DNA of 64,000 bases, from NCBI RefSeq assembly GCF_009363115.1, contig NZ_CP045298.1, positions 4,089,501-4,153,500 on the forward strand, in the 5' to 3' direction. Under the pieces are notes generated by a model. That model was given only the letters and a program-made list of their open reading frames with translations. It ran no database searches and was not told where the DNA came from. Source of the DNA: Paenibacillus brasilensis (GTDB lineage: Bacteria > Bacillota > Bacilli > Paenibacillales > Paenibacillaceae). Shown piece by piece: positions 33,674 to 38,181 of the stretch. Made by a program: the position numbers and the translations under genes. How positions within the stretch are numbered: the first letter of the stretch is position 1; each line of letters starts with the position of its first letter.

Positions 33674-33703
33674 TTGACGCATTTAAAATATGATGATTAT
33701 AAT
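33674..33703 (+). promoter_or_regulatory. Sigma-A promoter of lpd
   Basis: TTGACG, 18-bp spacer, consensus TATAAT. The -10 lies in the left arm of the operator palindrome. Confidence 0.7.
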
Positions 33704-33727
33704 ATATTATGATCATCATATTTTAAA
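33682..33727. promoter_or_regulatory. 46-bp operator palindrome over the lpd promoter
   Basis: Two 22-bp arms (33682-33703 and 33706-33727) are reverse complements except for one position, around a 2-bp centre. It covers the -10 and the start site, an ideal place for repression by the divergent TetR protein. Confidence 0.8.
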
Positions 33728-35140: not shown

Positions 35141-35191
35141 AGGTTCCGTACAAAATCACTTCATTACCTGTGAGAATAATTATCAACTATG

Positions 35192-35491
35192 ATGGGTTAT
35201 AGTTTGAAAGTGAATGCGATCAGATACGTGGATGGTTTGGATCGGGGGCTGGACGACAGTATTTATAGGCTGGAACGTTTCCATGTACTGCATAGGGAAA
35301 AGGGATGTGCCTGAGTATATGGGGGATCATATCTTTGTATATGGTTCAGAAGTTGAAGGGGCCAATCAGGACAAGTCTATATGTACGGTTCATTCAGTGA
35401 TCAAGGTGATGAGTTTGTCATGGAGGACCCTTATTCGCTGGAGCTCCAACTCGATACTATCGTTAATCTCTTATTAGCCAACAAAAAATAA
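35192..35491 (+). pseudogene. Remnant of a small gene of about 100 codons, two frameshifts
   Basis: Three successive frames give a coherent small protein: MGYSLKVNAIRYVDGLDRG onward from ATG 35192, then EYMGDHIFVYGSEVEGA, then MYGSFSDQGDEFVMEDPY ending LLLANKK at 35491. No family recognised. Its last codons lie inside repeat copy 1. Confidence 0.4.
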
Positions 35492-35620
35492 AGCTGAATA
35501 CAACTTTAAAAACATATAGCATACATTTTTGATGAATCCTTTGGTTCATAGAGAAATAAACTGCTAAAGACGGGGCAAACCCTGTGTTTGGTGGTTTTTT
35601 TTATGGTTATTTTATGATAT
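35471..35620 (+). repeat. 150-bp direct repeat, copy 1
   Basis: Nearly identical to 37531-37679. Contains a small hairpin (ATGAATCC with GGTTCAT) and a terminator-like stem (AACTGCTAAA with TTTGGTGGTT, then T8). The stem differs from copy 2 by changes that turn C-G pairs into U-G and G-U, so the RNA fold on the plus strand is kept. Confidence 0.85.
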
Positions 35621-35663
35621 GGATGAAACGATAAAAAACAATGAATTTTCTCACATAAAACGA

Positions 35664-35713
35664 CATATTCCAGCACTAAAATGTCATATTCCGACACCAA
35701 AATACCATATTCC
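35664..35713 (+). repeat. Three 21-bp direct repeats upstream of the chemoreceptor gene
   Basis: CATATTCC recurs at 35664, 35685 and 35706, each followed by a similar A/C-rich stretch with AAAAT. The period equals two helical turns. The third unit overlaps the -35 region of the promoter at 35731. Confidence 0.75.
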
Positions 35714-35730
35714 AACAAGTGTTGATAGGC

Positions 35731-35760
35731 TATAATCGTAGCAATGACAACTTATTGTCA
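35731..35760 (+). promoter_or_regulatory. -10 element and operator-like palindrome of the chemoreceptor gene
   Basis: TATAAT at 35731-35736 is followed by TGACAA, CTTA, TTGTCA at 35745-35760. No good -35 exists at 17 bp (TATTCC), which suggests an activator at the three repeats and possibly a repressor at the palindrome. Confidence 0.5.
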
Positions 35761-35797
35761 CTAAAATTTATTAGAGTCAGGATTGGTGGTTCACATA

Positions 35798-37492
35798 ATG
35801 AAACTGGCAACAAAATTAACTTGGATGATGCTCGTCATGCTGTTTCTCGTAGGATCCTCCATTGGATACTTCGGATATCGTACCGCTTACCATCAAGTAG
35901 ATGAAGCTGCAGGAATCGAGCTGGTGGGCTGCGCCAATATTACGACTGGCCTTATAGATCCTGCGGATATATCTGCTCTGGCCAGTGGAGATAACAGCAA
36001 ACTTGCTGCCATTGAAGACCGGATCGGCTGGATTGTGGCACATAAGCCTATTTTTAAAGAGGCTTTCATTCTCTCTCTGGATGGAAAAATTCTCGCTGCC
36101 GATGCTAACTTCAAGCAAAGAGGCTATCGAGCTGGCGATTCCTTCTACTTCACAGACGAAGACAAAGAAATGATAACTACCATGAAGCATTCCGCATACT
36201 CCAAGGTTTATACATATGAAGGAACCTCGCTCAAAACCGGATATGGTCCCATCTATCAGGATCATGATCCCACCAAGCCCATTGTTGCACTGATGGCTAT
36301 CAATTTTGATGGCTCGTTAATTCAGGAACGGACGTTGGATATTATTGTTCAGCCCTTCATTATTGGCGGTTCCATCTTCATCGTGGCTATCCTTGTCGCT
36401 TACCTGTTGATTCGCCGTATGGTAAGTCCGCTTACCAAGCTGTCAATCTCTGTGAACACCATTACCAAAGGTGACCTTACCCATGAACCAATTCTCTTCA
36501 AAAGTAAGGATGAAATCGGGAATCTGGCTCGCGACTTCAACGATATGACAATGAACCTGCGCAACCTGATTACTCAGGTCAATGACACCTCCATTCTGGT
36601 CGCCTCTTCCTCCCAGGAGCTGTCTGCCAGTGCCCAGGCAACAAACCGTGCCGGAGAGCACAGCGTGAATGTTACGATTGAGCTGGTTGATGGGGCGCAT
36701 ACCCAACTGGAGAACCTGGAAGAAAGCTATAAAGCCGTTCAGGATATATCACGCTTCATCAGCGATATTGCCGGCAATGCGGACATCGCAATGAACAAGG
36801 CCGCGGATAATGTCCAGAAAGCGCGTCTTGGCCGGGAATCGATGGATTCCGCCACCTCCCAAATAGGAGTAGTGAGCGAAAACATCGGCGATCTCTCAAG
36901 TATTATTGATACGCTTGGTAGCCATTCCAAGGAGATTGAGAACATCGTCGACACCATCACCAGCATAGCCGAGGAGACTAACTTGCTTTCGCTGAATGCG
37001 GCGATAGAAGCTGCGCGTGCCGGAGAAGAAGGCCGGGGCTTTGCCGTTGTCGCCGGCTCCGTCAGCAAGCTGGCCGAACGTTCTTCCATATCCGCCAGAC
37101 AAATCAGCGAGCTGATCAGTCTGATTATCACCCAAATGGACAAGGCGGGTGAAACTATGAAACGTTCCACGGACGAAATGCTGCAGGGCAAGGAGCTGAT
37201 CATATCGGCCGGACGCTCCTTCTCTGAGATCGAAATCTCCGTCTCCGATATGTCTTCCCAAAGCGAGCAAATTTCAGCCACAGTCCGGGAGCTGGCTCTG
37301 ATCTCCGAAGGGCTCGTTGAAGCCATTCAGAATATTGTAACGGTCTCCAATCATACGGCTGAAGGGGCGGAATCCCTGTCTGCCTCTTCGGAGCAACAAC
37401 TTGCCGCCATGCAAGAAGTGGAATCCTCCGCAGCGCTCCTCTCTTCACTGGCCGAGAAGCTGCGGGTTTTGGTGGAGAACTTCAAGATTTAA
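35798..37492 (+). CDS. Methyl-accepting chemotaxis protein
   Basis: 564 residues: membrane helix at about 8-30, extracytoplasmic Cache-like sensor about 31-180, second helix ([18 protein letters not shown]), HAMP ([20 protein letters not shown]) and a full signalling hairpin with tip [20 protein letters not shown]. Complete C-terminus. ATG 35798; TTG 35783 is possible but lacks a better site. Ligand unknown. It sits alone between two copies of a 150-bp repeat. Confidence 0.93.
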
Positions 37493-37530
37493 AAATTTAT
37501 TTTTGTTATGTGACTGGAAGAACAATCTGT

Positions 37531-37679
37531 TTATTAGAAAACAAAAAATAAGGCTGAATACAACTTAAAAAACGTGTAGCATACATTTTTGATGAATCCT
37601 TTGGTTCATAGAGAAATAAACCGCTAAAGACGGGGGCAAACCCTTGTTTGGCGGTTTTTTTTTGGTTATTTTATGATAT
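37531..37679 (+). repeat. 150-bp direct repeat, copy 2, acting as terminator
   Basis: Second copy, 39 bp after the chemoreceptor stop. AACCGCTAAA pairs with TTTGGCGGTT, with an inner GGG/CCC stem, followed by nine T, so it probably terminates the receptor transcript. Confidence 0.85.
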
Positions 37680-37739
37680 CTCAGCTCAGTCGCTAATTGT
37701 GTCGTCACTGTGACGTTATTGACAGAGGTTGAGGAGGCG

Positions 37740-38092
37740 CTAGTGTTGAAAGATAACCTCAATAACTACCGTCACACCAACAACCAAGCCTGTATTAATG
37801 ATTAGATTAGCAGTGGAAAGCGTTGTTAACCCGCCTCGCAGAAATGTTCCATTTACAAATACATTGTAATATCCACTACTGGTCGAAACAATTAGACCGT
37901 TTGCCGCAACTGAAGTACCGCTATCATTCGTGAAACTTTGTGCCGGGATGGTGGTCACTCCTCCAACAATGTTGCCAAGCACAGCAATGGTGTGTAACGA
38001 TTGACGGTCCGTGTGACATTTATATTCGTTGTGATAGCAATGTTTCCGGAAACGACGCTGTCTGCTTCCAAGTAGATTCGGATAATAGACAT
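37740..38092 (-). pseudogene. DUF4183-like spore-surface protein gene with a frameshift
   Basis: ATG 38092 with GGAGG 6 nt upstream begins MSIIRIYLEADSVVSGNIAI and continues to NVTRTVNRY. Near 37992 the frame must shift by one base to continue TIAVLGNIVGGVTTIPAQSF and GYYNVFVNGTFLRGGL, then the tail NLIINTGLVVGVTVVIEV. The C-terminal part resembles DUF4183 proteins linked to spore outer layers. A single-base deletion, or a sequencing error, is the simplest reading; the longer single-frame ORF from 38105 has a nonsense N-terminus. Confidence 0.65.
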
Positions 38093-38181
38093 AGGAATCC
38101 TCCATTCCTAATATTCCAGATGTATCTCATAGTTTATGTAAATCAGCTGGGATATGGATTGGATGGGGAAGAGTCTCTGAA

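Follow-up and report, generated by a model that had tools for sequence, protein, structure and literature searches.

The approximately 150-bp repeat that brackets a chemoreceptor gene in Paenibacillus brasilensis is very probably a pair of intrinsic (Rho-independent) terminators, one of them apparently copied from the tail of a neighbouring gene. In the mechanism that we propose, plus-strand RNA polymerase would transcribe a long stem followed by a U run and then release the transcript. Transcripts of an AraC/periplasmic-binding-protein gene, since decayed in this genome, would have terminated at copy 1, and those of the chemoreceptor would terminate at copy 2; some 150 bp from the end of the former gene appear to have been copied into the receptor 3' UTR. 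An A-rich tract may additionally allow the same stem to end convergent DUF4183 transcripts, less strongly. The inferred parts of this reading are the act of termination, the use of the stem in both directions, and a copying route by gene conversion (or a local duplication).

Extent and composition of the repeat pair

The window analyzed (a 64,000-nucleotide stretch of the genome designated G000 below) carries copy 1 at positions 35471-35620 and copy 2 at 37531-37679, both on the plus strand, on either side of a chemoreceptor (MCP) gene with HAMP and MCPsignal domains (35798-37492, plus strand). A preliminary description of this locus had reported a repeat of about 150 bp bracketing the receptor gene, and both its coordinates and its content are borne out: the copies share 93% identity over 150 bases (E 6.4e-56, blastn against the whole genome) and 90% identity across 132 ungapped bases. 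The search for additional copies that it had proposed identified copies 1 and 2 as the sole full copies in this genome, the next-best blastn match being only 29 bases long (E 7.2e-4). Both 135-base stretches fold better than 200 of 200 shuffles (z -3.3 and -4.1).

Copy 1 comprises the 3' end of a decayed gene, followed by that gene's 3' UTR and putative intrinsic terminator. Its opening 21 bases (35471-35491) correspond to the final six codons, with the TAA stop (35489-35491), of the AraC/periplasmic-binding-protein gene; that the repeat opens within the 3' end of a decayed coding gene had previously been missed, as had the fact that copy 2 starts 38 bases past the receptor stop codon (37492). 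Copy 2, the putative receptor terminator, bears the tail of this neighbouring gene: a copied binding-protein gene end (six codons plus stop; 37531-37551, plus strand) lies in the receptor 3' UTR, and the order is misplaced 21-base coding tail, UTR, and terminator, the latter two as in copy 1. No binding-protein gene tail was seen after the receptor in the related genomes G060, G059, G061, G025, or G024.

The decayed AraC-HTH/periplasmic-binding-protein fusion gene (35249-35491, plus strand) was delimited by tblastn with an intact protein (L068:4454-6484), and the pieces left match residues 69-92, 601-621, and 635-676 of this 676-aa relative, whose Pfam domains are HTH_18, HTH_AraC, and Peripla_BP_2. 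The reading frame of the fusion gene runs uninterrupted for 676 residues in G060, G059, G062, and G063, and for 660 in G024; the gene is broken in several lineages (the window, G025, where it is in two pieces, G026, and G027). Past copy 2 lies a convergent DUF4183 gene (37691-38130, minus strand), which is frameshift-broken here, with tblastn pieces in different frames and PF13799 scoring over its cut-off at 37755-37961. In G061, G059, and G024 it has an open reading frame of about 150 codons. Elsewhere in the window, a 46-base near-perfect palindrome (33682-33727; 23-nt arms, 96% complementary, no spacer) is situated between a minus-strand gene, which we take to be TetR-like, and a pyridine-nucleotide oxidoreductase gene.

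Probable terminator stem and G-U changes

The terminator stem-loops lie at 35558-35602 (copy 1) and 37618-37662 (copy 2) on the plus strand, each with a run of eight T (35595-35602 and 37655-37662, respectively). The copy 1 stem is AAACTGC...GGTGGTTT and the copy 2 stem AAACCGC...GGCGGTTT; both stem differences are C-to-T in copy 1 relative to copy 2, and the loop part is shifted by one base between the two. Pairing had been said to be kept in the plus-strand RNA only, and this is confirmed, the two differences giving U-G and G-U on the plus strand and A-C mismatches on the minus strand. Predicted stem energies are -17.7 (plus) and -4.0 kcal/mol (minus) for copy 1, and -18.0 (plus) and -10.2 kcal/mol (minus) for copy 2. 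Given that the copy-2 type pairs are the commonest among 14 copies compared within the genus (C-G in 12 of 14, G-C in 13 of 14), the copy 1 stem is probably the derived form. Its changes would be ordinary ones, since substitutions of A-U and G-C pairs in Bacillus cereus terminator stems mostly yield G-U, according to the accessible part of a published study (PMC5381666).

Every one of the 14 copies has a G+C-containing stem-loop directly before a T-run (plus-strand stems of -16.1 to -25.5 kcal/mol, followed by 6-8 T of 8) and lies past a same-strand stop codon, the first of the two genes being decayed in the window. Stem-breaking copies elsewhere, which the preliminary description had named as evidence against its reading, were encountered in part: in G024, the copy that follows the receptor looks, on visual inspection, to lack its 5' stem arm. 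This seemingly broken copy was left out of the 14, and the paired percentages given below thus omit one broken copy. A terminator scan of the region returned 2 sites, no excess over shuffles (mean 2.7), and lists copy 2 without copy 1. As far as the accessible part of PMC5381666 goes, intrinsic terminators of the Bacillota, including bidirectional ones, likewise have a stem and T-run just past stop codons and stems that change mostly via G-U, and some serve convergent genes; the present pair differs in that two near-identical copies lie past unrelated neighbouring genes in one genome.

It is possible that the copies terminate in both directions. The A-rich tract before the copy 1 stem (35550-35560) is T-rich on the minus strand, and 6 or 7 T of 8 follow the stem on that strand in all 14 copies. 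The plus-strand stem is more stable than the minus-strand stem in 13 of 14, and copy 1 of G000 (-4.0 kcal/mol on the minus strand) has both the worst minus-strand stem and no facing DUF4183. Of the 14 copies, 9 are faced by DUF4183 or a 3' remnant of it. Among 10 copies searched by blastn, 6 have it downstream, as does the broken G024 copy, the G025 matches spanning just 29 and 27 bases; tblastn adds 3 more copies, the second ones of G060, G059, and G061, each with a whole or nearly whole DUF4183. It was not found after the first copies of G000 and G024 or after the copies of G062, G063 (by tblastn only), and G012. Two-way use is only weakly tied to a convergent gene, because the four copies of G062, G063, G024, and G012 without a detected DUF4183 end keep good minus-strand stems (-13 to -18 kcal/mol).

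Distribution among relatives

Matches to the 150-base repeat at E ≤ 0.001 were found in 11 of 75 genus genomes, that of the window included. The proposed search in relatives yielded strong copies in eight genus genomes besides the window's: G060, G059, G061, G025, G062, G063, G024, and G012. The 14 copies follow three unrelated genes, namely the binding-protein gene (seven copies: G000, G060, G059, G025, G062, G063, and G024), the receptor gene (five: G000, G060, G059, G061, and G025), and a narI-like gene (two: G061 and G012), a label that reflects our presumption that this gene is narI. The receptor is bracketed by two copies also in G060, G059, and G025. G061 has one copy after the narI-like gene and one after the receptor, and G024 has one after the binding-protein gene and the seemingly broken one after the receptor. 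Single copies are present in G012 (after the narI-like gene) and in G062 and G063 (after the binding-protein gene). A receptor match at E ≤ 1e-180 occurs in 6 of 75 genus genomes, again including the window's; at ten loci where other Paenibacillus have receptors of 80-83% identity, no repeat copy was seen. With relatives that have the receptor and no copy, or a copy and no receptor, the element and the receptor evidently occur separately.

A covariance-model search of the genus, in which at most 62 candidates per genome were scored under stricter filters so that weak copies may be missed, matched 25 of 75 genomes at E ≤ 0.01; below 1e-8 it gave just 14 places in 9 genomes, these being the places from which the model was built. 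The other matches (at most 44.4 bits) were taken as other terminators or as the reverse strand of known copies. Weak blastn matches in G013 and G049 were also read as other terminators; of the two, only G013 entered an alignment, the first, and it was dropped thereafter. A literature search of titles and abstract starts returned nothing that concerns the repeat, which implies no claim of absence from print, and the accessible part of an RNA-seq study of Paenibacillus riograndensis (PMC5670726) holds nothing bearing on this locus.

Conservation of the stem and of the sequence preceding it

The preliminary description had envisaged a conserved RNA element, including a second hairpin, before the stem; the comparison does not support it, the consensus fold of the 14 copies being the terminator alone. 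The small hairpin (35532-35549 in copy 1 and 37592-37609 in copy 2, plus strand) is identical between the two copies of the window and is not conserved in relatives. Across the 14 copies (9 of 75 genus genomes), 98.6% of cells are paired in the outer terminator helix versus 79.1% in the small hairpin. The third pair of the small hairpin is broken in 9 of 13 distinct copies, or in 8 of 12 when the second copy of G025 is set aside, whose row starts inside the receptor coding sequence and whose first columns are no fair test of this hairpin. One pair of the outer terminator helix is changed on both sides. Covariation in the stem is not decisive; out of 500 shuffles, 86 matched the observed number of both-sides-changed pairs, 28 the covariation score, and 110 the percentage paired.

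Identity was further compared with that at four-fold sites of the receptor gene, taking the orthologues of copy 1 from five genomes. In all 10 genome pairs, which overlap in their genomes and are not independent, the 31 columns preceding the stem (28 positions per pair) fall short of the four-fold sites (e.g. 61% vs 76%). Identity over the 11 positions of the A-rich tract ranges from 82 to 100% and is higher than at four-fold sites in 9 of the 10 pairs. For the stem-loop the range is 74-94%: only 5 pairs lie above the four-fold value, 2 match it, and 3 lie below it, so the stem-loop changes yet keeps its base pairing. The comparison covered these three parts, the first 51 repeat bases lying outside the alignment; an insertion of approximately 25 bases splits those bases from the rest in G060, G059, G062, and G063. 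Rfam at gathering score returned only two tRNAs over the window, and no match at the repeat.

Likeness of the two copies

The two G000 copies share 90% core identity and are 61-84% identical to the other 12 copies, and an element tree joins them at 89/88, though this is a weak tree (81 columns, no starred branch). These values suggest gene conversion behind the likeness of the G000 copies. Within-genome likeness does not appear to be a general rule: the two copies of G025 are 71% and those of G061 82% identical, below their likeness to some copies of other genomes (80% and 98%, respectively), and in G060 and G059 the likeness between genomes is about equal to that within them.

The approximately 38 bases past the receptor stop match those of G024 up to about position 37530 (0 of 1000 single-base shuffles were as good), and the binding-protein tail begins where this match ends. 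In G060, G059, and G061, the receptor stop is followed by a different stretch, bearing TTTCGTGCAG, which resembles the binding-protein gene 3' UTR of G060, G059, G062, and G063. We take the end of the binding-protein gene to have been transferred onto that of the receptor on at least two separate occasions, by gene conversion or local duplication. The direction would be from the binding-protein gene to the receptor, because the coding tail marks the donor.

The receptor gene, its upstream region, and its possible loss

Downstream of copy 1 and upstream of the receptor lie a promoter-like TATAAT (35731-35736) and a short inverted repeat, TGACAA-TTGTCA (35745-35760), on the plus strand, both conserved in the 6 orthologues compared. 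The TATAAT site is absent from the sites listed by a consensus promoter scan; its conservation makes it a candidate for, and the likely, receptor promoter. Because it is located between copy 1 and the receptor, copy 1 is probably outside the receptor's own transcript, acting as a boundary. Upstream of the putative promoter, positions 35664-35726 contain a 21-bp direct repeat, CATATTCCRRCACYAAAAT, with three units here and two in five relatives; a spaced pair of these units has no other match in the genome, and the repeat could be the operator of a regulator. More distant orthologues have a like inverted repeat of other letters (e.g. GTGATAGCAATTATCAC) in the equivalent place (7 of 10 orthologues viewed).

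Recombination between the repeats had been suggested to delete or amplify the receptor gene. Deletion fits G062 and G063, in which one copy is present and the receptor was not found; amplification has no counterpart, as two receptor matches at E ≤ 1e-180 in one genome were found in none of the 75 genus genomes (one match each in 6). Compared with G060, the G062/G063 copy follows copy 1 from the binding-protein end as far as query base 157 and copy 2 as far as base 161; sequence from the DUF4183 start, as in G060, sets in at query base 160. Since the sequence following the copy matches the DUF4183 start, DUF4183 would have been lost along with the receptor; a hybrid copy is unproven, four bases being too few. 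The state of G062 and G063 fits, and does not prove, recombination between copies with further deletion.

G026 and G027 give no receptor match (E ≤ 1e-180) and have other sequence between the same neighbours, replacing the receptor between the binding-protein gene and DUF4183 (L149 3305-4670 in G026; L150 4496-5858 in G027). In G027 this sequence includes a possible lipoprotein start, judged by eye. The interval between these two genes is possibly a variable site. Forks stay open in the gene trees, from which no single history of receptor loss or gain emerges.

Alternative explanations

A small RNA produced from the repeat, its body comprising the small hairpin and the stem and its source being either a dedicated promoter or the cleavage of mRNA 3' ends, would accommodate the strong folding z-scores, the likeness of both copies in this genome, and a weak Rfam shape match to Qrr (E 0.45 and 2). 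We nevertheless consider it improbable: the small hairpin is absent from the consensus and broken in many copies, all 10 (non-independent) pairs are less identical before the stem than at four-fold sites, and neither copy has a plus-strand sigma-70-type site before the stem in a scan that also misses the likely receptor promoter. Qrr as such was rejected on scores of 22.7 and 20 bits against a gathering score of 50 (Rfam with permissive E-values, 35150-38000), comparative evidence also being against it; Qrr small RNAs (RF00378) do resemble the repeat in having a hairpin followed by a terminator, but the repeat scores far below gathering and its first hairpin is not conserved. We accord a very slim chance to the idea that the mRNA 3' ends of the binding-protein and receptor genes release one shared small RNA, with its sources kept alike by gene conversion in some lineages, that of the window among them; the mere 71% likeness of the G025 copies makes it slightly less probable still. 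Were it true, a nutrient-binding-protein gene and a chemoreceptor would feed the same regulator.

Copy 1 precedes the receptor in the same orientation and ends in a terminator, as a leader element (attenuator or riboswitch) controlling the receptor would, yet the conserved promoter-like TATAAT intervenes, the copies of G062, G063, and G012 were found without an adjacent receptor, and Rfam gave no riboswitch match, which together leave such control barely credible. Occurrence of the same element past three unrelated genes could instead point to a small mobile repeat (REP- or MITE-like) inserting at gene ends. This is highly unlikely, given the low copy number (two here, and no more than one or two strong copies in each of 9 genomes), a shared stretch that extends into neighbouring coding sequence (binding-protein codons and the DUF4183 3' end), no match in phage and plasmid collections, and matches in only 3 of 295 genomes of a family sample (19 genera), all of the same genus and one being the window's own. 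REP and other small dispersed repeats (cf. PMC12306157) are similarly intergenic and can form a stem, but the present genome has just two strong copies.

Implications

With the pair accounted for as ordinary terminators, its functional import would be small. The locus offers a tidy case of a terminator apparently copied from a gene to its neighbour, in which the donor is marked by a scrap of coding sequence. It also carries a caution, namely that two like copies in one genome are no evidence of a conserved RNA where copying suffices to explain them.
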